From Archangium violaceum (GTDB taxonomy: Bacteria; Myxococcota; Myxococcia; Myxococcales; Myxococcaceae), in NCBI RefSeq assembly GCF_016887565.1, contig NZ_CP069396.1, positions 6,926,001-6,990,000 on the forward strand: 64,000 nt of DNA, written 5' to 3'. Under the pieces are notes generated by a model. The model saw only the letters and a program-made list of their open reading frames with translations, ran no database searches and was not told the origin of the DNA. The stretch's first letter is position 1, and the number at the start of each line of letters is the position of its first letter. Positions 8,801 through 25,110 of the stretch are shown piece after piece. Made by a program: the position numbers and the translations under genes.

Positions 8801-9027
8801 CCCTCCACCTGCATCGCCGCTTCCTCGAGCGGCTCGATGATGTCGCTCTCCACCGCCTCCGGCGAGGCTCCCTCCCACGTCACGCTGATGCTGATGACGG
8901 GGTAGTCCACGTCCGGAAACTGGCTGATGCCGATGCGCTGGGCCGCCACCAGGCCGAAGACGATCGTCGCCGCCATCAACATCCAGGCGAAGACGGGCTT
9001 CTTGATGCACACCTCGGTGATGTTCAT
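5899..9027 (-). CDS. RND efflux transporter, inner-membrane pump (AcrB/MdtBC-like)
   Basis: This 1,042-residue proton-driven pump is the trimeric inner-membrane part of a tripartite drug or metabolite exporter. The N-terminus (NITEVCIKKPVFAWML...GISQFPDVDYPVISI) is typical of the HAE1 group. The proton-relay residues are in place: Asp399-Asp400 in GIVVDDAIMVMEN (helix 4) and Lys915 in GIVKKNSIILVDY (helix 10). The two large periplasmic porter loops are complete, and the overall length is normal. The C-terminus ends in a charged, Gly-rich cytoplasmic tail. Its ATG overlaps the stop of the membrane-fusion gene by four bases, so the two are translationally coupled. The substrate cannot be read from sequence. 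Confidence 0.95.
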   Translation of the reverse strand: MNITEVCIKKPVFAWMLMAATIVFGLVAAQRIGISQFPDVDYPVISISVTWEGASPEAVESDIIEPLEEAAMQVEGVKSITSKSSLGGGSISVELDLSRDVDQALQDVTSKVSQAQNRLPRDIDPPVISKSNPEDQPIVQVGVSGPFSRQFISDFARYRLKESLQTVPGVGEVTLGGSLERNVRIWVDAQKLDARGLTVTDIVTALQREHVELPAGRIETEGREVNVRMMGEALDMETLRHLVVREGAGSPVYLSDVALVEDGFEDERRIARVDGQPAQGLGVRKQRGANAVAVAQGVRAKIAEVQKDAPEGLEVGINFDSTRFIEESVHEIEFELLLACILTALVCWAFLGSLSSTLNVILAIPMSLLGTVAVIYFLGFTLNTFTLLGLSLAVGIVVDDAIMVMENIFRHAEEGKERVAAAREGTQEITFAALAATLAVVAIFLPVVFMEGVIGRFFLQFGVTLCVAVLLSYVEAITLAPARCAQLLKTSREGRSKVGLAVDRAFTWLEHHYGKVLARGLARPWWVLGGAVVLLALSGLAFKSLSSEFVPSQDQGRVMVRLQTAVGSTVEETNRLFLRSEEFLRNRPEVTRLFAVVGGGGSGVNGGMLFITLVPQDQRMPMSEFSQLVRKELNSYPGLRAVVMDLSQSGFTASRGFPVEFSVRGSDWERLIESSTEMREKLQASGKVVDVDTDYQLGMPELRITPDRARAADLGVSMQDVGSTLNALVGGVRVGKYSTGGRRIDVRLRLLKDQRSRPEDLALLKVRTRSGELVPLSSLVAQEERPALQAITRKDRERAISIFANVAPGATQQDALETVERLAKDLPGGTRVVFGGSSVAFQESMSSLLFALFLGIGVAYMVLASQFNSFLHPVTVLTILPLSVAGAAFAMWGTNTTLNIFSMIGLLLLMGIVKKNSIILVDYALQQREQGADAVEAMQRAGPVRLRPILMTSLATMMAAVPAVLALGAGSETRAPMSVAVLGGLSVSTVLSLLVVPAFYVVADRMKARLDRRRGRDEHGSGSGGEGTPLAGGEEKPRLAGS

Positions 9028-10217
9028 CGACCGGCGCCTCCATTGCTGGCATCCGCCTCGGGGCGCGGCTCACCCGTGAACGAGGGCTTGGGGCCCTCGG
9101 CGATCCGCACCGCGGCGCCGTCCTTGAGCGCCTCGCCACCACGCACCACCAGCTGCTCGCCGGGCTTGACGCCCCCGCGCACCTCCACGAGGCCATCCGC
9201 CGTGCGCAGTCCGAGCTCCACCACGCGCTCACGTGCCTTACCGTCCTCCACCACGAAGGCCAGGAAGCCGCGCTCGCTGGGGCGCACCGCCGTCTGGGGG
9301 ATGACCGGAGCCCCCTGGGCCGTCTCCACCGGCACCGTCACCGTGGCGAAGGCGCCCGGCCGCAGCGCCTGGGCCTCCTTGCCGCTCACCTCCGCCGTCA
9401 CCTTCACCATGCGGCTGGCCGGATCCGCCGCGTCCGCCACGTAGCTGATGCGGCCCGTGTACGTGCGCCCGTCCGAGCGCACCGTGAAGCGCGCCGGCAT
9501 GCCCGGCTTCAGCCGCGCCACGTCCGCCTCGGCCACGGTGAAGCGCAGCAGCAGCGGATCGCGCCGCAGCAGCGTGGCCAGCACCGTGCCCGGCTGCACG
9601 TACTGCCCCGTCTGCACCGTGCGCGTCTGCAGCACCCCTTCCATGGGCGCCTTCACGTAGGCATCACGCAGGTTGAGCTCGGCCTGATCCAACGCCGCCT
9701 TCGCCGCGCTCGCGTCCGCCGCCGCCGTGCGCGCCCGCGCCTGGGCGGTGTCGAGCTGCTCGGCCGGCAGCAGGCCCGGCTTCGCCTCGTTGGCCGCCGT
9801 GCGCCGCCCGGACGCCGTCTCCGCCTCGTCCTTCGCAGCCTGGGCCTTCTCCAGCGCCGCCTGCGCCGATCGCACCGCGATGCTGTAGCGCGTGGGCTCG
9901 ATCTCCGCGAGCACCTCGCCCTTCTTCACCGTCTGGCCTTCCATGAAGCGCACCTGCTCCACCACGCCCGCCACGCGCGCGGTGATCTGCACCTGCTCGA
10001 AGGCCTCCACCGACCCCACCGCCGAGACGATGTACTCCACGTCCCGCGACTCCACCGGCGCCACCTCCACGGGGAACTGGATGGGACCGCGGCCTCCGGG
10101 ACCACCCTTCGCGCCTCCCTTGCCCGCGGGCGGGCTACCGGCGGCCTCCTTGCCTCCACACCCCGTCCCCAGGGCGAGCGCGGCGCCCAGTGCCATCGTC
10201 ACCACACGGATCTTCAC
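9024..10217 (-). CDS. RND efflux periplasmic adaptor (membrane-fusion lipoprotein)
   Basis: This 397-residue HlyD/AcrA-family adaptor bridges the pump and the outer-membrane channel. The signal peptide ends in a lipobox (LGTGC, Cys20), so it should be anchored as a lipoprotein. The barrel-sandwich half-motif begins near residue 62 (YIVSAVGSVEAFEQVQITARVAGVVEQV), followed by an Ala-rich helical hairpin (about 110-180), the second half-motif (YVKAPMEGVLQTRTVQTGQYV) and the beta-barrel and membrane-proximal domains. The start is GTG at 10217, directly after the upstream TAA, with ggaaggag inside the end of the preceding gene. It is the middle gene of the three-gene pump operon. Confidence 0.94.
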   Translation of the reverse strand: MKIRVVTMALGAALALGTGCGGKEAAGSPPAGKGGAKGGPGGRGPIQFPVEVAPVESRDVEYIVSAVGSVEAFEQVQITARVAGVVEQVRFMEGQTVKKGEVLAEIEPTRYSIAVRSAQAALEKAQAAKDEAETASGRRTAANEAKPGLLPAEQLDTAQARARTAAADASAAKAALDQAELNLRDAYVKAPMEGVLQTRTVQTGQYVQPGTVLATLLRRDPLLLRFTVAEADVARLKPGMPARFTVRSDGRTYTGRISYVADAADPASRMVKVTAEVSGKEAQALRPGAFATVTVPVETAQGAPVIPQTAVRPSERGFLAFVVEDGKARERVVELGLRTADGLVEVRGGVKPGEQLVVRGGEALKDGAAVRIAEGPKPSFTGEPRPEADASNGGAGR

Positions 10218-11561
10218 TTACGGCTCCTTCCCCAGCGGATCGAGTCCCACGGCGGCCCGCAACTCCAGGAGCGCGGAGCCCAATGAATAGCGGGCTTGTG
10301 CGAGCGATACCTCGGCCTCGAACAACCTCACTTGCGCATCGCTCAACGCCAGGGACGTGGCAAGACCCTGACGGTAGAGGATGCTCGTCTCCTCGGCGTT
10401 CTGTCGGGCGGCCTTCACGGCCACCTCGCCGAGCTCCAGTGCGGCCTGGGCCGTGCGCAGCGACACGCGCGCGCTCTCCACCGCCACGTCCACCCGCCGC
10501 ACCCGCGCCTGCGTGTCCAGCTCTTGCACCCGCGTCAGCGCGAGCCTCTCTCGGCGATCGGCGTAGCGCTCGCCTCCGTCGAAGAGGGTCCAGGTCAGGT
10601 CCACCGTGAGGAAACCGTTGAAGGTGTTGCCGGTGAGGCCCGCCTCGTTGGTGGCGCTGCCCTGCGCGGAGGCCGTCAGCGAGGGGAAGAGCCGCGCCAG
10701 GGGCTCTCGCGCGAGGGCCTTCTGCTGCTCCACCCGCAGTTTCGAGGAGAGGATGTCCGGACGGCGCTCCAGGGCGTTCTCCGCCAGCCCCGCGAAGGAG
10801 TCCACCGGACGGGAGGCCTCGGAGAACAGCGTCTCGGGCGCGGCCAGCGGCTCCTGCACGGGCGCCACCAGCAGGTAGCCCAGCTCCAGGCGGCTCTCCG
10901 CGGCGTTGCCCACCGCATCGGCGAGCTGCGACTGCGCGGTGGCCACGTCCAGCTCCGCGCGCGTCACGTCGTTGGTGCTCGCCAGCCCCGCCTGGGCCCG
11001 CGCCCGGGCCTCCTCCAGGGACTGCTTCGCGTAGGCCAGCCTCCGCTCGGCGGCATCGGCCACCTGCTGCCGGCCCAGCGTCGTGAGGAAGGCGTTCGCC
11101 GCCTGGAAGCCCACCTGCCGGCGTGCCTCCACCGCGTCCAACGCCGTCGCCTCGTCGTCCCGCTTCGCCGCCTCGTAGAGGGGAAAGCCGCGCGCGTCGA
11201 AGAGGGTGATGCGCGCCACGGCGTTGGCGCCCAGGGCGTTGAAGCGCTGCAGCACCACCGTCTGATCCCCCACCTGCCGCGTCGACTCCTGGGGACGGCG
11301 CGTATAGCTGCCGTTGAGCGTGAGCCTCGGGAGGAAGAAGGCCAGGGCGCGAGACACGCGGGCCCGGGCGGCCTCGGAGCGGGCCGCGGCCGACAGCGCG
11401 GACTCGTTGTTCTCGGCCGCGAGCGACACCGCGCGCTCCAGCGTCAGCGGCTCCTGCGTGGCCCCTGGAGTGGGCCCCGGCTCCTGCGCGCGCGCGTCAT
11501 GCGCACATAGAGCGAGCCACACACACATGGGGACGGCAACTGCGGATCGGATCAAGGACAT
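10218..11561 (-). CDS. TolC-family outer-membrane efflux protein
   Basis: This 447-residue outer-membrane factor provides the exit duct for the RND pump encoded downstream. The two repeated alpha-helical halves of the family are recognisable (LTLERAVSLAAENNESALSA and, later, the FAGLAENALERRPDIL block). The open frame extends to 11717. I chose the ATG at 11561 because it gives a clean Sec signal peptide (SLIRSAVAVPMCVWLALCAHDARA). It is the first gene of the operon, and its stop abuts the adaptor's GTG. The following gene on the right is divergent, so the 177 bases up to 11738 must hold the promoters for both directions. Confidence 0.93.
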   Translation of the reverse strand: MSLIRSAVAVPMCVWLALCAHDARAQEPGPTPGATQEPLTLERAVSLAAENNESALSAAARSEAARARVSRALAFFLPRLTLNGSYTRRPQESTRQVGDQTVVLQRFNALGANAVARITLFDARGFPLYEAAKRDDEATALDAVEARRQVGFQAANAFLTTLGRQQVADAAERRLAYAKQSLEEARARAQAGLASTNDVTRAELDVATAQSQLADAVGNAAESRLELGYLLVAPVQEPLAAPETLFSEASRPVDSFAGLAENALERRPDILSSKLRVEQQKALAREPLARLFPSLTASAQGSATNEAGLTGNTFNGFLTVDLTWTLFDGGERYADRRERLALTRVQELDTQARVRRVDVAVESARVSLRTAQAALELGEVAVKAARQNAEETSILYRQGLATSLALSDAQVRLFEAEVSLAQARYSLGSALLELRAAVGLDPLGKEP

Positions 11562-11606
11562 GTTCGTGCGCAGAGGGGCGATCCGGAGGGGGAGGACAGC
11601 AGGCCC

Positions 11607-11635
11607 ATATATAGGAGCCAGCCGAGCACGGCCAA
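11607..11635 (-). promoter_or_regulatory. possible sigma-70-type promoter of the RND operon
   Basis: On the minus strand, TTGGCC (11635-11630) and TATATA (11613-11608) are separated by 16 bases, about 47 bases upstream of the outer-membrane factor start. This fits the -35/-10 pattern loosely and is the only AT-rich patch in the divergent spacer. No start site can be seen directly, so this is a weak call. Confidence 0.35.
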
Positions 11636-11708
11636 GGGAACCCACCCGTCTGGACGCTGCATCGCACATCGAGCTAATGGGGAGGGAGACGAAGGCTTTC
11701 TTCACGTC

Positions 11709-11723
11709 GGGCGCCAAGCGCCC
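11709..11723. promoter_or_regulatory. short inverted repeat in divergent spacer
   Basis: The perfect inverted repeat gggcgc-caa-gcgccc lies 15 bases before the start of the MopE-repeat lipoprotein. It could be an operator or a hairpin in the leader. Such repeats also arise by chance in DNA of this composition. Confidence 0.25.
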
Positions 11724-13689: not shown

Positions 13690-14388
13690 ATGGAGCTGCG
13701 CGCGGACAGGCTCTCGGTGCGGCAGGGGGTGCGGCCCGTCCTTCGGGACGTGGACTGCACCCTTCCGCCGGGCAGCCGCGTGCTGGTGATGGGGCGCTCG
13801 GGCGCGGGCAAGACGACGCTGTTCAAGGCGCTCGCGGGGCTGGTGGCGCCGACCAGCGGCCGCGTCCTCTGGAAGGGCGGGGACGTGGCCGGGATGACGC
13901 CCGCGGACAAGCGCGTGCGCCAGGCGGCGTTCGGCATGGTGTTCCAGACGGATGCCCTCTTCGACTCGATGACGGTGCGGGGCAACGTGCTGCTGCCGCT
14001 GGAGCGCCGGCGCGTGCCACGCGAGGAGGCGGAGGCACGAGCGGACGAGGTGCTGCGCGCGGTGGGACTCGCGGACGCCGCGGACACGCTGCCCGAGCGG
14101 CTGTCCGGCGGCATGCGCAAGCGGGCCGGCATCGCTCGGGCGCTGGCGGCGAGGCCCTCGGTGCTGCTGGCGGATGATCCCTTCGCGGGGTTGGACCCGG
14201 GCACGGCGCGGCAGGTGGCGCGGGTGCTGCTGGAGGTGGCCGGGAGCGGCACGCTGATCGTCGCCGCGCCCGATGCGCCCCCCGAGCTCTCCCTCTCCCG
14301 CTGGCTGTACCTGCGCGAGGGGCAGCTCGTCTACGACGGCCCTCCGTCCCCCGAGGTGGAGACGCTGACGGACGAGGCGCTCGCATGA
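13690..14388 (+). CDS. mlaF: MlaF-like ATPase A, degenerate Walker B and H-loop
   Basis: This 232-residue ATP-binding subunit belongs to the Mla/MCE lipid-transport type. Walker A (GRSGAGKTT, Lys41), the Q-loop (Gln86) and the signature (LSGGMRKR, from residue 138) are canonical. Two catalytic positions are not. Walker B reads LLADDPFAGLD, with Asp163 where the catalytic Glu is expected. The switch region reads TLIVAAPDAPPE, with Pro194 where the H-loop His is expected. Hydrolysis at its own site should be poor or absent. It overlaps the permease start in an ATGA arrangement. Its partner is probably the second ATPase at 19388, which has the complementary defects. The ATG at 13690 starts the conserved domain; longer frames run into the upstream gene. 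Confidence 0.88.
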   Translation: MELRADRLSVRQGVRPVLRDVDCTLPPGSRVLVMGRSGAGKTTLFKALAGLVAPTSGRVLWKGGDVAGMTPADKRVRQAAFGMVFQTDALFDSMTVRGNVLLPLERRRVPREEAEARADEVLRAVGLADAADTLPERLSGGMRKRAGIARALAARPSVLLADDPFAGLDPGTARQVARVLLEVAGSGTLIVAAPDAPPELSLSRWLYLREGQLVYDGPPSPEVETLTDEALA

Positions 14389-15161
14389 GCGGGATGCTGG
14401 TGTGGCTCGGCCAGGAGGCGCTGGGCGCGGTGCGGTCGGTGGGGGCGCTGGCGCTCGTGCTGGCGCGGACGGTGCTGGGGCTCGGGCGGATGGATCGCCG
14501 CGAGCTGCTGCGCGGGCTGGAGGAGTTCGGCTGGGGCTCGCTGCCGCTGACGCTGGCGGTCGCGGCGCTGACGGGGGCGACGGTGGTGGTGCAGACGTCG
14601 CTGTACGTGCAGCGCTTCGGGGCGCGGGCGTTCCTCGGGTGGGCGGCGGGGTACGCGGTGCTGTGGGAGTTCGGCCCGTTGCTGCTGGGGCTGGTGATGG
14701 CGGCACGGCTGGGGGCTCGCAACGCGGCGGAGCTGGCGACGATGCAGGTGGGCGGGCAGCTCGAGGGCCTGCGCGGCATCGGGTTGGATCCCTTCGCGGT
14801 GCTGGTGGCCCCGCGCGTGGTGGCGATGACGGTGAGCGTGACGGGCCTGTCCACCCTCACCTTCCTGGTGGCCGTGCTCTTCGAGGCGGTGGCTGCCTAC
14901 TTCACGCTGGCGCTGCCGGTGCGCGCCTTCTTCGACAGCTTCGAGCGCATGCTGCACGCGACGGACGTGCTGGGCGGCGTGGTGAAGTCGGGCGCCTTCG
15001 GGCTGGCGATCGCGCTGGTGTCCACCGCGGTGGGAATCCAGGCGCGCGGAGGCGCTCGGGCGGTAGGACAGGCGGCCGCGGGCGCGGTGGTGATGGGGTG
15101 CGCGGCCATCTTCCTGCTGGACTTCCTGCTCACCTCCTCCCTCGCGTTCCTGCTGAGGTGA
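14385..15161 (+). CDS. mlaE: MlaE-like lipid-transport permease A
   Basis: This 258-residue integral inner-membrane permease belongs to the MlaE/YrbE family. The N-terminal amphipathic elbow helix is followed by about five membrane helices. The family signature is around residues 101-128 (WEFGPLLLGLVMAARLG and ARNAAELATMQV), and the conserved GLDPFAVLVAPRVVA motif follows. It should pair with an MlaF-type ATPase on the cytoplasmic side and with an MCE ring on the periplasmic side. The ATG overlaps the ATPase stop (ATGA). A second, clearly different MlaE paralogue is encoded at 18648, so the transporter core may be a heterodimer, as with YrbE A/B in actinobacterial Mce systems. Confidence 0.9.
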   Translation: MSGMLVWLGQEALGAVRSVGALALVLARTVLGLGRMDRRELLRGLEEFGWGSLPLTLAVAALTGATVVVQTSLYVQRFGARAFLGWAAGYAVLWEFGPLLLGLVMAARLGARNAAELATMQVGGQLEGLRGIGLDPFAVLVAPRVVAMTVSVTGLSTLTFLVAVLFEAVAAYFTLALPVRAFFDSFERMLHATDVLGGVVKSGAFGLAIALVSTAVGIQARGGARAVGQAAAGAVVMGCAAIFLLDFLLTSSLAFLLR

Positions 15162-15219
15162 GGCCGGGAGTCCGTTTCACGGCGAGCGAACGGCCTGGAG
15201 TTCTCGTAGAGTCACGCCC

Positions 15220-16152
15220 ATGTCCCGCTTGTTGCCCCTCCGGAGTGCCGGCGCCGCGGCGTTGGCCCTCGTCCTGTCCGCGACCCCGACGACCTCCGCG
15301 TGGGCGGCCCGCCCCAAGAGCCGCGCGCCGAAGCAGCAGCCAGCCCCACCTCAACAGCAGCCGCGCGCCGAGGAGCCGCAGCCGGTCCTGCGCACGTACC
15401 TGAACGCCGCCCTTCGCTTGTACGAGAGCCTCGAGTACGAGCGCGCGCTCGAACAGATCCGCCGTGCGAAGAGCTACACGCGGAGCGTGGACGACGACGT
15501 CACCGTGTCGCTCTTCGAGGGCGTCATCCTGGCGGACATGGGGCGGAAGGAGGACGCGATCGCCGCCTTCCGCACGGGGCTGCTGCTGCGGCCGGAAGCA
15601 ACGCTGCCGGTGAAGGTGTCCCCCAAGGTGGAGCGCGACTTCGAGACCGTGCGTCAGGGAGTGCGCCGCGAGCTGGCCACCCTGCAGGCGAAGCAACAGG
15701 CGGAGCAGAAGCCCCCGGAGCCCGGCGGGGAAACACCCGCCCAGCAGGAGCCGACCTCCACCCGATCCGCGCTCGACGCACCGGCCGCGGCCACCCCGGA
15801 TGCGGCGGTGGCCACCGCCACCCCGGCGGCACCGCGTTCGAAGACACTCTCCTATGCCCTCATGGGTGGAGGCGTGGTGGCGACGGGCGTTGGCGCGTAC
15901 CTGGGCGTGTCCGCCCTCTCCTACAACCAGCGCAAGCTGGAGCTCCGCGCCGATGACGCCGTGAAGGCCCGCTCCCAGGCGGAGACGCAACTCACCGCGG
16001 GCGCGGTGCTGGTGCCCGTGGGGCTCGCCGCGCTCGGCACCGGGCTGGTGATGATGCTCCTGCCCGGAGACACCGCTTCCACCCCTTCATCCACCGTCTC
16101 GCTCGCGCCGCTTCCCGGGGGAGTCTCCCTCGGTGCCGCCGGGCGCTTCTAG
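15220..16152 (+). CDS. secreted or membrane protein with TPR-like N-terminal domain
   Basis: This 310-residue protein has a Sec signal peptide (cleavage probably after SAWA, about residue 27) and a Pro/Gln-rich linker (about 28-55). A helical TPR-like pair follows (about 57-125; LNAALRLYESLEYERALEQI and DMGRKEDAIAAFRTGLLLRP), then a charged and Pro/Ala-rich region. Two hydrophobic segments lie near 207-230 and 258-280. I do not recognise a named family. The layout resembles myxobacterial proteins of unknown function with a periplasmic TPR and C-terminal anchors. It lies between the two halves of the Mla-type cluster on the same strand, 58 bases after the permease, so a role in assembly of that system is possible but unproven. 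Confidence 0.7.
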   Translation: MSRLLPLRSAGAAALALVLSATPTTSAWAARPKSRAPKQQPAPPQQQPRAEEPQPVLRTYLNAALRLYESLEYERALEQIRRAKSYTRSVDDDVTVSLFEGVILADMGRKEDAIAAFRTGLLLRPEATLPVKVSPKVERDFETVRQGVRRELATLQAKQQAEQKPPEPGGETPAQQEPTSTRSALDAPAAATPDAAVATATPAAPRSKTLSYALMGGGVVATGVGAYLGVSALSYNQRKLELRADDAVKARSQAETQLTAGAVLVPVGLAALGTGLVMMLLPGDTASTPSSTVSLAPLPGGVSLGAAGRF

Positions 16153-16175
16153 CCGCCTCACCCAGAGGACACGCG

Positions 16176-18572
16176 ATGACCCTTCGTCCCTTCCACCTGT
16201 GGATGTGCTGCCTCGTGGTGAGCACGGGGTGTGGTTGGCTGCTGGAGGACTACTCCGGCGTCCTGTGCAACGAGGACGGCAGTTGCCCCACGGGCTACTT
16301 CTGCGCGGCGGACACCGGGCGTTGCCAGCCCGGAGAGGCGCCAGTCGTCGAGGACGCGGGCGTGTGCGCCAATGTCTCGGCCTGCGTCGCGGACGACGGT
16401 TGCTGCCCGAGCGGCTGCAACGCGAACAACGACACCGACTGCCAGCCGGCGTGCGGCAACGGCCAGGTGGAGACGGACGAGGTCTGCGACGACGGCAACA
16501 CGCTCAACGGCGACAACTGCGATCCCACCTGCCGCTACTTCAACGGCGTGTCCGTGGTGTCCGGTGTGCCGGGCTCGCGCGGCTACTCGGATGGGCCGCG
16601 CAACGCCGCCCGCTTCCAGGGGCCGACCTCCCTCGCCCAGGGCACGGGCACGCTCTTCGTGGTGGACACGGATAACGCCACCATCCGCCGCATCCAGCTC
16701 TCGGATGGCACCACCTCCACCGTCGCGGGTGCCCCCTTCGTGAAGCAATACGTCGACGGTCCCCTGGCCCAGGCGCGCTTCGTCCAGCCCGAGGACGGAG
16801 TGTTCTTCGACCAGTACCAGGACCTCTACCTGCGGGATCGTCTGCTCCTGTCGGACGGGGGCACGTCGAGCGAGCAGGTGCTCCGCCGCATCTCACTTGA
16901 TGGCGGCGTGGTGGAGACGGTGGATGCCGGCACGGGATTCACCAACCTGCGAGGCCTGGGCAAGGATACCCAGGCCCTGCTCCTGCTGGATGACAACGGC
17001 CTGCGCCGGTGGGCTCCCGCCACGGGCACGCTGGAGACGGTGGCCACCGCGGCCCAACTGGCGGCCTACGCCGGCTCGAACCCCTGCGAAGGCGTGACGG
17101 CTTCCTTGGGTGGCACCTACCCGTACTACCTCGCCTGCCGCCAGATCATCCTGCGCGTGGACGACCCGGCCGGGACCATCTCGGCCTACGCTGGGAGTCC
17201 GACCTACTCCGGGTGCTCGGACCCGACGGATGGTGGCCTGGGCTCGGCCACCTTCTACCAGGCACGCAGCCTCGCCTGGGGGCGCATGACCGTGTTGGTG
17301 CCCAGCCCCCGCACCTACACCTTCCTCTTCGTCGCGGACCCGGGCTGCCAGACCATCCGGGTGATCTTCGGAAGCACGCTCACCACCCACGCTGGCGCCA
17401 ACTACAGCGCGGGGTACGTCGACGCGGTGGGGGACAGGCTCGCCGCCCGTTTCAACCGGCCGTACTCGCTCGCGGTGACCACCGGAGCACTCAACGCCTC
17501 CCCCACGGTGTACGTCGCGGAGCCCGGAAATTCGGCGGTGCGTCAGATCACGGGCATCAGCACCGTGTTCACCACGAGCCCGAGTGGCGTGGCGACCTAC
17601 GCGGGCGCGCCTCCCAACACCACCTTCGCCTACTCGGACGCGGGGACCACGGCCCGCTACACCCAGGTCACCGACCTCGTCACCGATGGCGATGCGGGAG
17701 TCGCCTACGCCACCTCGCGCACGGGCGGGCGCGTGTTCCAGGTGTCACTCGACACGGGCGCCTCCGAGGAATTGGCCGCGTTCTCCAGCCAGGCCGTGGC
17801 CATCACCCAGCTCGAGGGCATGCTCTACGTGGCCCTCGTCGACGGTACGGTGCGCCGACTCACCCCGGGCTCCTCCACCCTGGAGCTCTACGCGGGCAAG
17901 AGCGGACAGACCACCCCGGCGGTGGATGGTGCCCGCACGACGACCGCGGTCCTCTCCGCCGCGGCCCTGGTCACCGACGGCAAGGCCCTCTTCTTCGTCG
18001 ATGACAAGGCGCACAGCATCCGCAAGCTGGACCCGGCGACGAACTTCGTCACGACGCTCGCGGGAGGCGACAGCAGCGCCGGCCCGCCAGCGGTGGCCGA
18101 TGGCACCGGCCGCACCGCGCGCTTCGAGAACCCGAGGGACCTCGCCTGTGACGGCCAGTTCCTCTACACGCTGGACGGCGACGGCTCCGTCGTGCGGCGG
18201 ATCAGCATCGGCACCGGCGAGGTCACCACGATCGCCGGCCAGCTCGACGTCCTGGGCGCGCTGGATGGCTTCGGCAAGGAGGCGCGGTTCGCCGGAGCGC
18301 GGGGGCTGACCACGGATGGCCGCTACCTCTTCATCTCGGATCCGGGCGGTGGGCCGACGGTACCGGACCTCACAGGCCCCACCATCCGCGCGCTGGACCT
18401 GCGGACGCTCTCCGTCACGACGATGGCGGGGATGCGCGGGCAGTGGAGCGTCATGGCCGGCCCCGGGACGAGCGCCCGGCTCGATGCGCCGGGCCCCATC
18501 GCCTTCGATCCGATCCGCCAGACGGTGGTGTTCTACGACGAGCGGGAGAACAGCTTCCTGAGCATCCGGTGA
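16176..18572 (+). CDS. lipoprotein with Cys-rich DUF4215-type repeat and NHL propeller
   Basis: This 798-residue exported lipoprotein has a signal peptide ending VVSTGC. The N-terminal 120 residues are Cys-rich, with a C..DGSCP.GYFC segment and a DUF4215-type repeat (CGNGQVETDEVCDDGNT, then GDNCDPTC), a motif very common in myxobacterial surface proteins. The rest is made of NHL-like blades, each with a pattern such as GPTSLAQ...LFVVDTDNATIRRI followed by TSTVAG. These probably form one or two six-bladed propellers for protein or ligand contacts. The ATG is preceded by agagga. It lies between the TPR protein and the second MlaE gene, so it may be co-transcribed with the lipid-transport genes. 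No catalytic motif is seen. Confidence 0.8.
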   Translation: MTLRPFHLWMCCLVVSTGCGWLLEDYSGVLCNEDGSCPTGYFCAADTGRCQPGEAPVVEDAGVCANVSACVADDGCCPSGCNANNDTDCQPACGNGQVETDEVCDDGNTLNGDNCDPTCRYFNGVSVVSGVPGSRGYSDGPRNAARFQGPTSLAQGTGTLFVVDTDNATIRRIQLSDGTTSTVAGAPFVKQYVDGPLAQARFVQPEDGVFFDQYQDLYLRDRLLLSDGGTSSEQVLRRISLDGGVVETVDAGTGFTNLRGLGKDTQALLLLDDNGLRRWAPATGTLETVATAAQLAAYAGSNPCEGVTASLGGTYPYYLACRQIILRVDDPAGTISAYAGSPTYSGCSDPTDGGLGSATFYQARSLAWGRMTVLVPSPRTYTFLFVADPGCQTIRVIFGSTLTTHAGANYSAGYVDAVGDRLAARFNRPYSLAVTTGALNASPTVYVAEPGNSAVRQITGISTVFTTSPSGVATYAGAPPNTTFAYSDAGTTARYTQVTDLVTDGDAGVAYATSRTGGRVFQVSLDTGASEELAAFSSQAVAITQLEGMLYVALVDGTVRRLTPGSSTLELYAGKSGQTTPAVDGARTTTAVLSAAALVTDGKALFFVDDKAHSIRKLDPATNFVTTLAGGDSSAGPPAVADGTGRTARFENPRDLACDGQFLYTLDGDGSVVRRISIGTGEVTTIAGQLDVLGALDGFGKEARFAGARGLTTDGRYLFISDPGGGPTVPDLTGPTIRALDLRTLSVTTMAGMRGQWSVMAGPGTSARLDAPGPIAFDPIRQTVVFYDERENSFLSIR

Positions 18573-18647
18573 GCCGAGCGCCCGGGCGGTTTCGCTCCCC
18601 GCGCCGGGCGCGCTACGCTCATGGCTCCCCCAGGGCCCCCACCCGGA

Positions 18648-19391
18648 ATGAACATCCTCAGATTCTTCGGAGCGCCCGCATTGATGCTCGCGCGCACGGT
18701 GCGTGCGAGCGCGCGTGATGGCCTGTCCTGGCACGAGTGCCTGCGGCAGTTGCACGAGCTGGGCGGGCGCAGCGCGTGGCTGGTGACGTCGGGCATGGCC
18801 TTCTTCGGGGCCGTGATGGTGACGATCGCGGACAGCCAGGCGAGGAAGATGACGGGGAACCTGCCGGTGGTGGGCCCGCCGTACTTCGAGCTGATGGTGC
18901 GCGAGTTCGGCCCGGTGATGTCCGCGCTGCTGACGGCGGCGCGAGGCGGAGCGAGCCACGGCGCGGAGCTGTCCACCATGAGCGTGAACGAGCAGGTGGA
19001 GGCGCTGGAGATGTCGGCGGGAGATCCGCACGCGGACCTGGTGGCGCCACGGGTGGTGGCGGGGCTTTTGGGGGTGCCGCTGCTGTGCATCCTGGGGACG
19101 ATGGCGGCGACGCTGTCGGCGGTGTTCACGGCGAGCTGGGGCTTCGGGGTGGACGGGACGGCCTTCATGGACGCGCGGTACGTGGACGGGTGGGACGTGG
19201 TGGCGGGACTGGTGAAGGCGGCGGGCTGCGGCCTCTACATTCCACTGGCGGCGGCGGTGGCGGGCCTGTCCGCGCGAGGAGGCGCCGAGGCGGTGGGCGA
19301 GGCCACCACGCGCGGGGTGGTGGCGGCGTGCCTCGGCTGCCTGCTGATCGACTTCGTGGTGGCGCTGGGCTTCCAGGCGCTGCGGGTGTGA
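18648..19391 (+). CDS. mlaE: MlaE-like lipid-transport permease B
   Basis: This 247-residue membrane protein of the MlaE/YrbE family has the conserved signature VREFGPVMSALLTAARGG followed by ASHGAELSTMSVNEQVEALE, and several hydrophobic helices. It is only distantly similar to the first permease in this cluster, so the two are probably an old paralogous pair and not a recent duplicate. I chose the ATG at 18648 (NILRFFGAPALMLART, the usual amphipathic N-terminus); an ATG at 18621 would add a Pro-rich stretch of nine residues. Neither has a strong ribosome-binding site. The next gene's GTG overlaps its stop by four bases. Confidence 0.88.
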   Translation: MNILRFFGAPALMLARTVRASARDGLSWHECLRQLHELGGRSAWLVTSGMAFFGAVMVTIADSQARKMTGNLPVVGPPYFELMVREFGPVMSALLTAARGGASHGAELSTMSVNEQVEALEMSAGDPHADLVAPRVVAGLLGVPLLCILGTMAATLSAVFTASWGFGVDGTAFMDARYVDGWDVVAGLVKAAGCGLYIPLAAAVAGLSARGGAEAVGEATTRGVVAACLGCLLIDFVVALGFQALRV

Positions 19392-20119
19392 GCGGGATGC
19401 TGCGCTTCTCGGAAGTGGCGGTGACGTTCGAGTCCGGCCGGCGGGCGCTGGTGGGCCTGAGCGCGGAGCTGTCCACGCGCGAGCTGACCTTCGTGGCCGG
19501 AGCGAGTGGCGCGGGCAAGAGCGTGCTGTGCCGGCTGGCGGTGGGGCTGCTGAGGCCGGTGGCGGGCCGGGTGGAGCTCTTCGGCGAGCGGGTGGACACA
19601 CTGCCCGAGCGGGCCTTGCGCAAGTTGCGCCAGAGGGCGCCGTACCTGGTGCAGGGCCCGGCGCTGCTGGACTGGCGGACGCTGCGGGAGAACGTGACAC
19701 TGGCGGCCCCGGGCCTCTCGGCGGACGCGGTGCACGAGGCGCTGGCCCAGGTGGGACTGGAGTCCGCGGCGGATCGGCTGCCCACCGAGCTGGGGCCCGG
19801 GGCGAAGAAGCGGGCGGCGATCGCGAGGGCCCTGGCGCTGCGGCCGGAGTACCTGCTGCTGGACGAGCCCACCACGGGCCTGGACCGGAGGGCGGCGGCG
19901 CAGGTGGAGGGGGTGCTGGCCTCACTCAAGGCGCGAGGGCTGGGCGCACTGGTGGTGTCACACGACTACCACCTGCTGCGGACACTGGCGGATCGGGTAC
20001 TGGTGGTGGGAGGGGGACGCTGTGCCTTCCTGGGCACGCCCGAGGCGTTCCTGGCATCCTCGGAACCCGAGCTGCGGGCCCTGACGGCGCCCTTCCTGGA
20101 GAGCGCAACGGATGGATGA
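19388..20119 (+). CDS. mlaF: MlaF-like ATPase B, degenerate signature motif
   Basis: This 243-residue second ATPase of the Mla/MCE-type cluster has canonical Walker A (GASGAGKS, Lys44), Q-loop (Gln89), Walker B with catalytic Glu160 (LLLDEPTTGLD) and switch His192 (VVSHD). The ABC signature is broken: TELGPGAKKR at about 133-142 replaces LSGGM/Q. This is the mirror image of ATPase A (13690), which keeps the signature but lacks the catalytic Glu and switch His. The GTG start at 19388 overlaps the permease stop (GTGA) and gives the same N-terminus (MSGML) as permease A; an ATG at 19397 is the alternative. The downstream MCE gene overlaps its end by eight bases. Confidence 0.88.
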   Translation: MSGMLRFSEVAVTFESGRRALVGLSAELSTRELTFVAGASGAGKSVLCRLAVGLLRPVAGRVELFGERVDTLPERALRKLRQRAPYLVQGPALLDWRTLRENVTLAAPGLSADAVHEALAQVGLESAADRLPTELGPGAKKRAAIARALALRPEYLLLDEPTTGLDRRAAAQVEGVLASLKARGLGALVVSHDYHLLRTLADRVLVVGGGRCAFLGTPEAFLASSEPELRALTAPFLESATDG

Positions 20120-21125
20120 GCGTCGCTTGGAGATGAAGGTGGGCGCGCTGGTGCTGGCGGCACTGGTGGGCGTGCTCGGGCTGCTGTGGCTGATGGGCGA
20201 GCTGCGCACGGGCGGCGTGACGGTGCTCTCGGTGGACTTCGCGCACACGGGCAACGTGGTGAAGGGCGCGCCGGTGAAGCTGGGCGGCGTGGCGGTGGGC
20301 CGGGTGGAGGAGATCCACCTGCAGCCGGACCGGCGGGACGCGCAGGGCCGGCCGCTGCCGGTGCGGATGGGCGTCTGGGTGCAGCCGGAGGTGCAGGCGG
20401 CGCTGCGGGCGGACACGCGGGTGACGGTGGCCACGGTGGGACCGCTGGGCGAGCCGTACCTGGAGCTGAACCCGGGCTCCGCGTCCGCGCCTCCCCTGCC
20501 CTCGGGAGTCGCCCTGCGGGGCACGGATGCGCCGCGGTTGGACCTGGTGGCCCAGCAGCTCTCGGCCTTCCTGGACGTGGCGAGCGGGGCGCTCGCGGAC
20601 GACCCCGAGGGGCTGCGGAAGCTGGCGGCCAACGTGTCACGGCTGACGACCACGATGGAGAGCGTGCTGAACGAGAACCGGGGGGACCTGCGGACGCTGG
20701 CGGGCGAGCTGTCCGCGGCGGCCAAGGACCTGCGGACGCTGGCGAGGGTCTCTCGCGAGACGATGCAGCCCGGAGGCGCGGGGGCGCGGCTGCTGGGGGA
20801 CGCGGCGGACGCGGCGGCGCTGGTGAAGCGCGAGCTGCCCGCCATCTCCGGCACGGCGGCGAAGACGCTCAACGGCCTGTCAGCGGTGACGAGCGAGCTG
20901 GACACGAAGGATGGCGAGCGACTCAAGCTGGCCCTGGAGCGCTACTCGGCGGCGGGCGAGAAGCTCGATCAGATCGCCGGGCGGGCGGACCGGCTGCTCC
21001 AGCGCATCGAGGCCGGCGAGGGCACGGTGGGCGCACTGCAGAAGGACAAGCAGATCTACGACGACCTGCGGGGACTGCTGTCGGACCTCAAGAAGCACCC
21101 CTGGAAGGTGCTCTGGAAGGAGTGA
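20112..21125 (+). CDS. mlaD: MlaD-like MCE-domain protein
   Basis: This 337-residue periplasmic lipid-shuttling protein is anchored by one N-terminal membrane helix (about residues 9-27). The single MCE domain spans about 37-120, with the typical VDFAHTGNVVKGAPVKLGGVAVGRVEEI stretch here split as VDFAHTGNVVKG and APVKLGGVAVGRVEEI. A long helical C-terminal part follows (about 150-337; repeated LRTLAGELSAAAKDLRTL), as in MCE proteins whose helices build a hollow needle or tunnel. It is the only MCE gene for two permeases and two ATPases, so a homohexameric ring on a heterodimeric core is the simplest model. The ATG at 20112 overlaps the ATPase stop. It is the last gene of the cluster; 107 bases without clear features follow. 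Confidence 0.9.
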   Translation: MDERRLEMKVGALVLAALVGVLGLLWLMGELRTGGVTVLSVDFAHTGNVVKGAPVKLGGVAVGRVEEIHLQPDRRDAQGRPLPVRMGVWVQPEVQAALRADTRVTVATVGPLGEPYLELNPGSASAPPLPSGVALRGTDAPRLDLVAQQLSAFLDVASGALADDPEGLRKLAANVSRLTTTMESVLNENRGDLRTLAGELSAAAKDLRTLARVSRETMQPGGAGARLLGDAADAAALVKRELPAISGTAAKTLNGLSAVTSELDTKDGERLKLALERYSAAGEKLDQIAGRADRLLQRIEAGEGTVGALQKDKQIYDDLRGLLSDLKKHPWKVLWKE

Positions 21126-22411: not shown

Positions 22412-23185
22412 TCAGCCGAGCAACCAGCGCATGGCGAGTGGCAGCCGGCGCTGCCAGTCCTTCTCGTGGTGGAGCCCACCCGGCTCCAGCACGAGGAACA
22501 GCTCGTGGTCGGCGTAGCCCAGGCTCTTGAGGTGGTGGAAGAAGTCGCGCGTGGCCTCGCCGTAGTACATGGTGTAGCCGACCGGATCGATGGTCTCGTG
22601 GAGACCGGCATCCAGGTAGATGCGGGACCAGCGCCGGGTGTGGGCGGACCACTCGGAGAACATCCGGTTCCAGCCCCACATGACGGAGGGAGAAAGCCCG
22701 CCGATGCGGCCGAACAGCTCCGGGTGCTTCCAGCCGAGGTACAGCGAGATGAGGCCACCCAGGGACGAGCCCATGACCGCCGTCCACTCGGGGCCCTGAC
22801 GGGTGCGGTAGGTGGAATCGATGTAGGGCTTGAGGGTCTCGACGACGAAGCGGGTGTAGGGCCCGCCGCGGGCCTGGACGTGGCTGCGCGGCTCGTCCCA
22901 GGGCGAGTACTCGGAGAGCCTGTTGGACGTCGAGTCGACCGCGACGATGAGCCAGGGCTCCAGACGGCCCTCGGAGACCATGTGCTCAAGGGCGGTGTTG
23001 GCGCACCAGGTGTCGTAGATGGAGGACTCGGGGTGGGCGAAGACGTTCTGCCCGTCCTGCATGTAGAGCACGGGGAAACGCCGGTGGGGCTCATGGTCGT
23101 ACGCGTCCGGGGTGTAGATGCGGACGGTGCGGGAGAACCCCTCCTGCGGAGAGGCGAAGTCTCGGATGATGTGGACGTGTCCCAT
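22412..23185 (-). CDS. alpha/beta-hydrolase esterase (esterase D / enterochelin-esterase type)
   Basis: This 257-residue putative serine esterase of the PF00756 type has its nucleophile in GSSLGG (VMGSSLGGLISLYLG). The catalytic His is probably in GGLHHEKDW near the C-terminus, and the acidic residue between them is likely in the LDAGLHETIDP segment. The early MQDGQNVF motif is typical of the family. No signal peptide is seen. Its first 194 bases, and 26 bases upstream of it, are repeated perfectly at 23953-24172, where they form a truncated pseudogene. It converges on the ATP-grasp gene and lies 46 bases downstream of the DUF4377 lipoprotein on the same strand. Confidence 0.88.
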   Translation of the reverse strand: MGHVHIIRDFASPQEGFSRTVRIYTPDAYDHEPHRRFPVLYMQDGQNVFAHPESSIYDTWCANTALEHMVSEGRLEPWLIVAVDSTSNRLSEYSPWDEPRSHVQARGGPYTRFVVETLKPYIDSTYRTRQGPEWTAVMGSSLGGLISLYLGWKHPELFGRIGGLSPSVMWGWNRMFSEWSAHTRRWSRIYLDAGLHETIDPVGYTMYYGEATRDFFHHLKSLGYADHELFLVLEPGGLHHEKDWQRRLPLAMRWLLG

Positions 23186-23211
23186 GGAGGCTGCCGGATT
23201 CTACGGCGTCC
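22992..23211. repeat. 220-bp perfect direct repeat, copy 1 (esterase 5' end)
   Basis: By direct base comparison this stretch is identical to 23953-24172 at an offset of 961 bases. It covers the first 194 bases of the intact esterase gene and 26 bases upstream. Beyond both ends the sequences diverge at once on the right (c versus a) and on the left. Confidence 0.95.
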
Positions 23212-23231
23212 CTACAACATAGCCCGAACTC

Positions 23232-23774
23232 TCAGGGAGTGGAGATCAACCGCTCCGCGACCAGGGGCTTGTCGTAGCTGCTCGGGTAGCTGAACTCGAG
23301 CGTGAACCGCCGGGTCGAATCTCCTGCCAGCCGGGCGAGCTCGCCGCACAACTCCTGCGTCGCGCAGACGAACTTCGTGGACAGCAGCGAGATGCCAGAG
23401 CCCCTGTCGGGCCAGATGAAATCCCCGGTGAGCGCGAGCTGGAAGCGAGAGCCCTCGGGCAGCCGGTTCCGCTTGACGGTCCGCTCCAGCGAGTACCGCT
23501 TGGAGGCCCCATCCGCTGGAGGGTTCGCGACATCGTGGACCCGCACATCGATGGTCTGGGCAACGCCCCACTGGAAGGAGAAGCCAGAGATTCCCTCATA
23601 GAAGAGCTGCCGCTCGCCGGAGCCGACCTCCTTCGCATCGATACAGAGCCAGGGCCCCAATCCATGGCAGGGAACCATGTGGGGGGTCACCTCGTAGGTG
23701 CGAGGCTCGCCGCACCCGATCAACCCCACTGCGCCCAGCAGACAAAGTCCCATCCAACGACGTGTTTGACGCAT
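23232..23774 (-). CDS. DUF4377-type lipoprotein
   Basis: This 180-residue exported lipoprotein has a signal peptide ending VGLIGC. The mature part matches the DUF4377 pattern, a small beta domain with conserved Cys and a W/F-rich turn (LCIDAKEVGSGERQLFYEGI, then GFSFQWG). The function of DUF4377 is not known; it is often found in envelope lipoproteins. I chose the ATG at 23774 (preceded by aaaggag) over the upstream start of the open frame at 23867. A diverged remnant of its last 40 or so codons lies at 24240-24365. Confidence 0.75.
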   Translation of the reverse strand: MRQTRRWMGLCLLGAVGLIGCGEPRTYEVTPHMVPCHGLGPWLCIDAKEVGSGERQLFYEGISGFSFQWGVAQTIDVRVHDVANPPADGASKRYSLERTVKRNRLPEGSRFQLALTGDFIWPDRGSGISLLSTKFVCATQELCGELARLAGDSTRRFTLEFSYPSSYDKPLVAERLISTP

Positions 23775-23952
23775 CCGAAGCTCCTTTCGGATGCACGCCA
23801 AAGCAAACGGCGCGCCACGGGCTCTCGGGGCCTCACTCCCCGGGAATCCGAGCAGGCCACACGCCACGGTCTCTCAAATTCATCCGGCACCATGACGTGC
23901 GTGCCCTACCCGGAGGACGCGCTCGCGTTCTGGGCGCTCTTGATCAACGCGT
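23775..23952. other. spacer with no recognisable gene
   Basis: This sequence lies between the DUF4377 lipoprotein and the truncated esterase copy. I see no convincing coding region, RNA or repeat in it. The junction with the 220-bp repeat at 23953 is abrupt. Confidence 0.5.
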
Positions 23953-24146
23953 GCGGTGTTGGCGCACCAGGTGTCGTAGATGGAGGACTCGGGGTGGGCG
24001 AAGACGTTCTGCCCGTCCTGCATGTAGAGCACGGGGAAACGCCGGTGGGGCTCATGGTCGTACGCGTCCGGGGTGTAGATGCGGACGGTGCGGGAGAACC
24101 CCTCCTGCGGAGAGGCGAAGTCTCGGATGATGTGGACGTGTCCCAT
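23880..24146 (-). pseudogene. truncated esterase copy
   Basis: From its ATG at 24146 this frame reproduces the first 64 or so residues of the intact esterase exactly (GHVHIIRDFASPQEGF...YDTWCANTA). It then runs into unrelated sequence (RVDQERPERERV) and stops, before the GSSLGG nucleophile. It cannot make an active hydrolase. The identity at DNA level implies a recent duplication or continuing gene conversion. Confidence 0.85.
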
Positions 24147-24172
24147 GGAGGCTGCCGGATTCTACGGCGTCC
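23953..24172. repeat. 220-bp perfect direct repeat, copy 2
   Basis: This is an identical copy of 22992-23211 in the same orientation. It carries the esterase start region and its leader, and forms the intact part of the truncated esterase pseudogene. Confidence 0.95.
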
Positions 24173-24239
24173 ACGCACCATGGGATGACGGGAGCACCCG
24201 CGTCATCGCTCTCGCGCGCTCCGTCCCTCCGCACCTTTC

Positions 24240-24652: not shown

Positions 24653-25110
24653 CACTCCCCCTATTCAAACCTCACCTCAATATTAGTATAAGCCCCCATC
24701 TCGCCTTCTATCTTCTCCAGCGTTGGCTTCGTAAACTCGTACTCAGCTGCTCGCCTTCCGGTCCACGCCTGCTTCACCGCTTCCTCCAGGGGCACCCCCT
24801 TTGCCGTAAGCTCATTCACCTTGGCCAAGTTATCACCGTACACCCACTTGCCCCTGACAGCCTTCACTTTGGGACCGAAGTGATTCATCATCTTAAAAAA
24901 CATATCACTTCCACGCACGGGAGATTCTTTACCAGCCTCAATGACCATTTCGACAACACCTTTTTCATCTATCGCTCCAAGAATACCATACTTGGTACCA
25001 GGAATAGTAAATACAAAGTCTTCCGCAGATCCCGGACCAAGACTGATAAAGAGTCGCCGAGAAACCGGATGTTCATGAGTAAGAGCCGCAAATGTCTCCG
25101 GCAATTCACC
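24368..25110. other. AT-rich island covering toxin tip and immunity gene
   Basis: Counts on 60-base lines give 21 G+C at 24961-25020, 28 at 24541-24600 and 29 at 24601-24660. Most of the window has about 38-44 per 60. The drop begins inside the Rhs C-terminal region and ends with the small gene, as expected if the toxin-immunity cassette was acquired separately from the conserved Rhs shell. Confidence 0.8.

Follow-up and report, generated by a model that had tools for sequence, protein, structure and literature searches.

Complementary motif losses in two MlaF-like ATPases predict an asymmetric heterodimeric motor for an MCE-type transporter in Myxococcota

Transporters of the MCE type carry lipids across the envelope in diderm bacteria, mycobacteria, and chloroplasts. 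Here, we describe a five-gene MCE cluster of Archangium violaceum whose two MlaF-like ATPases carry complementary broken motifs. The cluster lies in a 64,000-nucleotide stretch of DNA that we refer to as “the window” (NCBI RefSeq assembly GCF_016887565.1, contig NZ_CP069396.1, positions 6,926,001 to 6,990,000 of the forward strand), and it comprises two MlaF-like ATPases (A and B), two MlaE permeases (A and B), and one MCE gene. From the distribution and conservation of the motifs, we consider it highly probable (roughly 0.88) that ATPases A and B form an obligate heterodimer in which one ATP site is canonical and the other degenerate, and that this motor would drive a heterodimer of the two MlaE permeases together with an MCE protein of the elongated type.

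Each ATP site of an ATP-binding cassette (ABC) protein is composite: one subunit supplies the Walker A and B motifs, the Q-loop, and the H-loop, and its partner supplies the signature (PMC7756269). ATPase A (232 amino acids; 13690–14388, + strand) has an intact Walker A motif, GRSGAGKTT (residues 35–43; 13792–13818), including its Lys, together with an intact Q-loop Gln and an LSGGM signature (residues 138–142; 14101–14115) that is predicted to complete a canonical ATP site on B. Its Walker B stretch, VLLADDPFAGLD from residue 158, places Asp163 (14176–14178) at the catalytic Glu position, and its H-loop stretch, LIVAAPDAPP from residue 189, places Pro194 (14269–14271) at the switch His position. 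ATPase B (243 amino acids; 19388–20119, + strand) has the opposite combination, retaining Walker A (GASGAGKSV, residues 38–46; 19499–19525), catalytic Glu160 (19865–19867), and switch His192 (19961–19963) with a degenerate signature, LGPGA (residues 135–139; 19790–19804). The original prediction, made from the letters of the window, had named these residues, and translation and alignment bear out every one of them; the composite-site rule that it invoked is also the one given in the cited paper. Judged by its motifs, a full canonical site is predicted only for the A–B pair; A–A and B–B pairs of the window's proteins would each lack one.

These complementary changes are conserved across the phylum, the first of two points that the original prediction had put up for testing. 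The totals below come from one alignment of 88 A and 87 B sequences from the family (96 genomes of Myxococcaceae, the window among them) and from outgroup genomes. All 88 A sequences have an [LI]SGGM signature, the Walker B Asp, GK[ST] in Walker A, and the Q-loop Gln. Their catalytic Glu position is occupied by Asp in 81 and by Glu in 7, and their His position by Pro (60), Thr (11), Asn (6), Ala (6), Ser (2), Gly (1), or His (2), meaning that the switch His is lost in 86 of 88, the exceptions being the A proteins of locus L055 and genome G164. By comparison, not one of the 87 B sequences has an SGG signature; Glu and the Q-loop Gln are present in all 87, GK[ST] in 86 (the B of L149, from an 80%-complete genome, has GTS for GKS), and His in 86 of 86, the B of L078 being cut before the H-loop. 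One family B, that of L107 (genome G050), has neither SGG nor GPG, its signature being VSPAL. In other words, the parts of the predicted canonical site (B Glu and His, A SGGM) are invariant and the parts of the predicted degenerate site (A Glu and His, B signature) are variable. Column entropy gives the same contrast in hand-picked subsets of 22 to 28 sequences, in which Walker A of A is also looser than that of B.

The sequence hallmarks of a degenerate site are present: an altered signature in B, and replacement of the Glu and of the H-loop His in A. They match the residue set of known asymmetric exporters to which the original prediction had pointed. In human ABC proteins, every degenerate site has an altered signature; replacement of Glu by Asp ranks second among the changes and frequently goes together with alterations of the H-loop (PMC7756269). 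A sequencing or frame error was rejected as the source of the pattern, which recurs in other A and B sequences.

Canonical MlaF proteins provide a control. All three motifs are intact in 30 of 30 control MlaF proteins of the family; these were the best 30 matches, chosen blind to the motifs, and are close orthologues (79–100% identical to the query), a second set of MlaF proteins (~55% identical) having been left out. A further 18 MlaF-like controls are also intact (14 from the outgroup and 4 from G000, G047, and G083), with the signature count circular, as they were picked by eye with LSGGM. L223 of G083, an 87%-complete genome, was left out of the controls (LSGGM and His intact, DGP for DEP, GR for GK); with its inclusion, the control count for Glu is 48 of 49. 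L232 (partial, LSTGM) was also left out, and L171 gave no row.

Among the family genomes, orthologues of permease B were found in 74 of 96 (E ≤2.4e-50, with the next matches at 1e-34) and orthologues of permease A in 73 (E ≤2.7e-73, with the next matches at 1e-31). The 74 loci are 73 fetched stretches around permease B plus the window. All five genes are present in 61 of them, arranged as ATPase A–permease A–permease B–ATPase B–MCE and read from the same strand; in the remaining 13, at least one of the five genes is absent from the stretch. ATPase B was recovered in seven of these 13 genomes, either at a more distant place on the same contig or on a different one, with an MCE gene directly 3′ of it in six and 0.6 kb on in the seventh. 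The two permease genes are separated by 1.4 to 9.4 kb in six loci of the window's genus and by no more than 163 bases in the other 67 of the 73 family loci having both, which is why the cluster appeared as a split operon when the window was considered alone.

ATPases A and B are also present or absent together, the second point that the original prediction had put up for testing. Scored at E 1e-48 over the 96 family genomes, A is present in 72 and B in 71; 69 genomes have both, 22 have neither, three have only A (G018, G022, G083), and two have only B (G020, G047). Retention of a single ATPase is therefore limited to five genomes, four of them at contig ends: in G018, G022, and G083 the sequence breaks off within permease B or shortly beyond it, and in G020 the contig starts within permease B. 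The fifth, G047, is discussed below. The 22 genomes without A and B are the same 22 that lack a strong match to permease B, and a strong match to permease A is absent from them too; canonical-type MlaF is present in 94 of the 96.

Across 195 genomes of the phylum, permease B was detected in 89 at a threshold of E 1e-36, and G187 was gained through a profile search. Of these 90 genomes, 16 fall outside the family; the thresholds used would miss more distant members. Both ATPases were found in all 16, and the B signature is altered in every one. ATPase A adjoins permease A in six of them (G108, G150, G151, G155, G157, G164), and was not seen beside the permeases in the other ten, where a profile of A (alignment A3) located one elsewhere. 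For eight of the ten, adjacency of A to the permeases is excluded by the length of the permease stretch or of the contig that carries A; in G156 and G194, contig ends may conceal it. The separately encoded A proteins have an intact SGGM in ten of ten, a lost His in ten of ten, and Asp for Glu in six of ten. Loci with one ATPase were considered as counter-examples and rejected, since the partner was found elsewhere in all ten genomes. Three genomes (G158, G159, and G160, ~3 Mb each; L135–L137, L154, L155, L160, L172, L174, L180) have adjoining permeases A and B, with ATPases A and B at separate sites. A single scan of named genomes, using short exact patterns from the window's permease B, yielded 17 loci, all titled myxobacteria; they belong to public genomes of the same group and are excluded from all counts. 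One of them, L009, is from Myxococcus, a genus that has the operon.

In the ten genomes without a linked A, the protein taken as A is the best match of a profile that includes the motif columns. For this reason, a tree of 85 ATPases was built with the signature, Walker B DDP, and H-loop columns removed. It contains three groups: B (support 99/97), canonical MlaF (94/82), and A (82/45). The A proteins encoded far from the operon are thus most likely true orthologues, to judge from their placement. Because A, B, and canonical MlaF stay apart without the motif columns, the damage is inherited within A and within B, and convergence of the motifs was rejected as the cause of the grouping. The minimum number of changes on the tree is one for the signature, at least two for the switch His, and at least four for the catalytic Glu (four also within A alone); L055 is absent from the tree, so the His change there is uncounted. 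The simplest order of decay would be the B signature, followed by the A His and then the A Glu, with the placement of G164 uncertain.

Both ATPases are under purifying selection. The ratio of nonsynonymous to synonymous substitution rates, calculated for the window against three genomes, two congeneric with it and the third from a different genus, is 0.21–0.24 for A and 0.14–0.18 for B. Decay as pseudogenes was rejected on the basis of these ratios and of the retention of SGGM in every A.

Several observations weigh against an obligate A–B heterodimer with one degenerate site. Seven of the 88 A sequences keep the catalytic Glu: those of G105, G108, G155, G187, G190, and G193, and the A of G164 (L138), which is fully canonical. 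The last is the nearest approach, among the genomes examined, to a cluster with two canonical ATPases, a case that the original prediction had said would refute it and that was not found there, the B of G164 being non-canonical. The closest relative of the window (G004, L055), with an A protein 95% identical, has His in its H-loop (LIVAAHDAPP). The B signatures of G158, G159, and G160 (ASAG, MSSG, and LSAG) retain Ser, making their loss of function less sure. Asp at the catalytic Glu position can still hydrolyze ATP slowly (PMC7756269). The single A branch is only moderately supported (82/45), and no ATPase A is among the matches listed for G047, a genome that is 78% complete. Lastly, the co-occurrence counts are non-independent, as losses are shared by related genomes; many of the 22 genomes without A and B are concentrated in a small number of genera, and there must have been fewer than 22 independent losses. 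Many of the genomes are also incomplete. As a separate observation on L055, its H-loop His is replaced by Pro, Thr, or Ser in the remaining 71 A proteins of the family, and may reflect reversion or polymorphism in the degenerate site.

Three other arrangements of the same proteins can be considered. In the least improbable of them, A and B do form a heterodimer with both sites hydrolyzing, the Asp and the altered signature being tolerated and the pump near-symmetric. The conservative nature of the Glu-to-Asp change, the slow hydrolysis that may remain with it (PMC7756269), and the seven A sequences with Glu all speak for this arrangement; yet up to three elements of one site are altered, with 86 of 88 A proteins also lacking the switch His and no B having SGG, and we regard it as improbable. 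We give roughly half as much credence to two independent homodimeric transporters, each ATPase working with the permease of its own half, whose genes are neighbors by chance. Each ATPase adjoins its own permease gene, the two halves are well separated in the six loci of the window's genus, and A is not beside the permeases in ten outgroup genomes. Against this, both sites of an A homodimer would be without His and in most cases without Glu, and both sites of a B homodimer without a canonical signature, though each state is conserved; moreover, a single MCE gene would have to serve both transporters, A and B are present or absent together, and the permease genes nearly adjoin in the rest of the family.

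A pairing of A or B with the canonical MlaF of another Mla cluster in the same cell, or promiscuous pairing, seems more improbable still, if only slightly. A canonical-type MlaF is available in nearly all family genomes, but this arrangement accounts neither for the joint absence of A and B while canonical MlaF stays nor for the fact that the damage in A is complementary to that in B. An A–B heterodimer with unequal sites remains by far the most probable arrangement.

We infer the composition of the dimer, the activities of its sites, the MCE oligomer, and the transport cycle as follows. The five genes would encode one MCE-type lipid transporter, with a permease A–permease B heterodimer powered by an ATPase A–ATPase B heterodimer. 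The canonical, hydrolyzing site would consist of Walker A, Walker B, Glu160, and His192 of B with LSGGM of A, and the degenerate site of Walker A and Asp163 of A, without His, facing LGPGA of B. The degenerate site probably still binds ATP, because the Walker A Lys/Thr and Q-loop Gln of A are kept, with turnover that would be slow or nil. ATP binding would close the A–B pair and a single hydrolysis per cycle would reopen it, and this motor cycle would drive the passage of lipid between the inner membrane and the channel of the MCE protein. The single elongated MCE protein would act as an oligomer, probably a homohexamer by analogy with MlaD and Mce1.

In its MlaE permeases (PF02405) and MCE domain protein (PF02470), the cluster is of the MCE/Mla (type VIII) kind. 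Permease A (14385–15161, + strand) and permease B (18621–19391, + strand) are ~38% identical and score 176.3 and 158.7 bits, respectively, against a cut-off of 22.5 for PF02405; permease B matches solved MlaE chains at E 1.2e-20 to 2.6e-17. The interval of the original prediction (13690–20119) ends before the MCE gene (20112–21125, + strand), which completes the cluster and scores 50.4 bits for PF02470 against a cut-off of 25.1. ATPases A and B score 118.4 and 86.6 bits for PF00005; for the NCBIfam MlaF equivalog, which has a threshold of 441 bits, ATPase A scores 118.7, and the model is not among the best 25 matches listed for ATPase B. Start and stop codons overlap at three junctions: ATPase A/permease A, permease B/ATPase B, and ATPase B/MCE. 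None of the eight window proteins run through Pfam is MlaA, MlaB, or MlaC, for which no genome-wide search was made. Across the host genome (13.2 Mb, a single contig) there are four MlaE genes and three MCE genes in all, and the ATPases of its other two clusters carry LSGGM, DEP, and His.

A single-chain model of ATPase B has a mean predicted local distance difference test (pLDDT) score of 93.0; its best structural match is MlaF (6xbd) and its third is MceG (8fed). In the MCE protein, an N-terminal membrane helix precedes a single MCE domain, and the C-terminus is long and helical. In its model, with a mean pLDDT of 66.8, the MCE domain is confident and the long helical region is of low confidence, and the top Foldseek matches are Mce1 chains and MlaD. 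The model fits an elongated MlaD type of protein, as in Veillonella and many diderms (PMC10665443).

Compared with characterized MCE systems, the cluster combines familiar parts in a different way. It resembles E. coli MlaFEDB, a type VIII ABC transporter, in its MlaE permease domain, MCE protein, and an MlaF-like ATPase with LSGGM (A). Unlike MlaFEDB, which is assembled as MlaF2E2D6B2 (PMC7790496) from one ATPase and one permease gene product with both sites canonical, it has two unequal ATPases and two permeases. Mycobacterial Mce1 (YrbE1A/YrbE1B, MceG, Mce1A–F) shares with it a heterodimeric permease, here predicted, and MCE proteins with long helices; by contrast, Mce1 has an MceG homodimer and six different MCE proteins (PMC9882608), where the cluster has two ATPases and a single MCE gene. 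The elongated MlaD of Veillonella parvula MlaEFD is similar in having an extended helical part, which has been proposed to span the envelope (PMC10665443), in a system with one MlaE and one MlaF rather than two of each.

The other natural comparison is with asymmetric ABC exporters. TM287/288 and BmrCD are of this kind, with degenerate-site residues that we take to follow the same pattern. In such exporters, represented in PMC7756269 by human proteins and Pdr5, one nucleotide-binding domain has an altered signature and the other an altered Walker B Glu (often Asp), sometimes with a changed H-loop, and these alterations fall on the same composite site. Unlike exporters of the TM287/288 type, in which the transmembrane domain is fused to the nucleotide-binding domain and has another fold, the window's ATPases are separate polypeptides on an MlaE-type permease. 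In its functional elements, the motor would resemble that of an asymmetric ABC exporter, and by descent the system is an MCE/MlaE transporter.

The original prediction had held a two-ATPase MCE motor to be new, with characterized MlaF being a homodimer. The latter point agrees with PMC7367683, and MceG, which serves the heterodimeric YrbE1A/1B permease, is likewise a homodimer (PMC9882608). As a result, a heterodimeric permease has a precedent among MCE systems, and none was found for a heterodimeric motor. The claim of novelty stands in part: asymmetric ABC motors as such are well known, and we found no description of an MCE ATPase heterodimer among the open-access matches listed (10 of 1,353 for one search), an absence that is weak evidence with most subscription papers outside its scope.

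Two genes lie between the half-operons of the window on the + strand: a TPR-like gene (15220–16152; Pfam TPR_2 under its cut-off) and a cysteine-rich repeat gene (16176–18572; beta-propeller-like, judged by eye). Among the 74 family loci, these genes separate the permeases only in the window and in L055, its nearest relative, and the inserted TPR-like gene is outside the ancestral operon. Upstream of ATPase A, on the − strand (5899–11717), are three genes whose translations resemble an RND pump, its adaptor, and a TolC-type outer-membrane protein; of 34 loci, 12, 8, and 9, respectively, have relatives of these in the vicinity of the operon. Further downstream, a 3,890-amino-acid RHS/YD-repeat open frame (24661–36333, − strand) has a distinct C-terminal part and is polymorphic toxin-like, judged by eye. 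Two open reading frames on the + strand (22466–23293 and 23535–24188) share a peptide stretch, antisense to an esterase-like gene (22412–23185, − strand); the repeat is probably a partial duplication of the esterase region, again judged by eye.

Of 34 loci examined, 15 have a UbiB/ABC1-family atypical kinase gene in the neighborhood of the operon, outgroup families included (PF03109 was tested in L109 and L066, and the others were identified by blastp). It lies within ~200 bases upstream of ATPase A in L113, L115, L130, L131, L132, and L134 (the L131 distance being measured by hand), and elsewhere in the fetched stretch in nine further loci. No such gene was seen beside the window's copy of the operon (6001–32000). 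A fusion of ATPase A to the kinase in L131 was rejected, the long frame ahead of A not being in the kinase's frame, judged by eye. The neighbor hints at a lead to cargo or regulation. In two outgroup genomes (L141, L143), permease A is preceded, at a distance of one to two kb, by a gene that looks MutT-like (Nudix) by eye.

More speculatively, these clusters may represent a phylum-wide class of obligately unequal MCE motors whose living members record how the motor evolved. Under this proposal, which is in our judgment rather doubtful as a whole, the B signature would have been lost first, after which the A His and then, on several occasions, the A Glu would have decayed, both of them serving only an already broken site; the product would be a pump that uses one ATP per cycle with a second ATP latched, and the UbiB-family neighbor would hint at an isoprenoid or quinone-related cargo. 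An asymmetric motor of this kind would bear on two questions about MCE transporters, namely whether both ATPs are needed per cycle, and how a two-fold motor is coupled to a six-fold MCE ring. As a natural asymmetric motor in an MCE fold, it would allow each ATP site to be disabled separately by mutating one gene, and the separate ATPase genes would ease subunit swaps. Its relatives, at different stages of decay, would make the origin of asymmetry in ABC motors testable by comparison.

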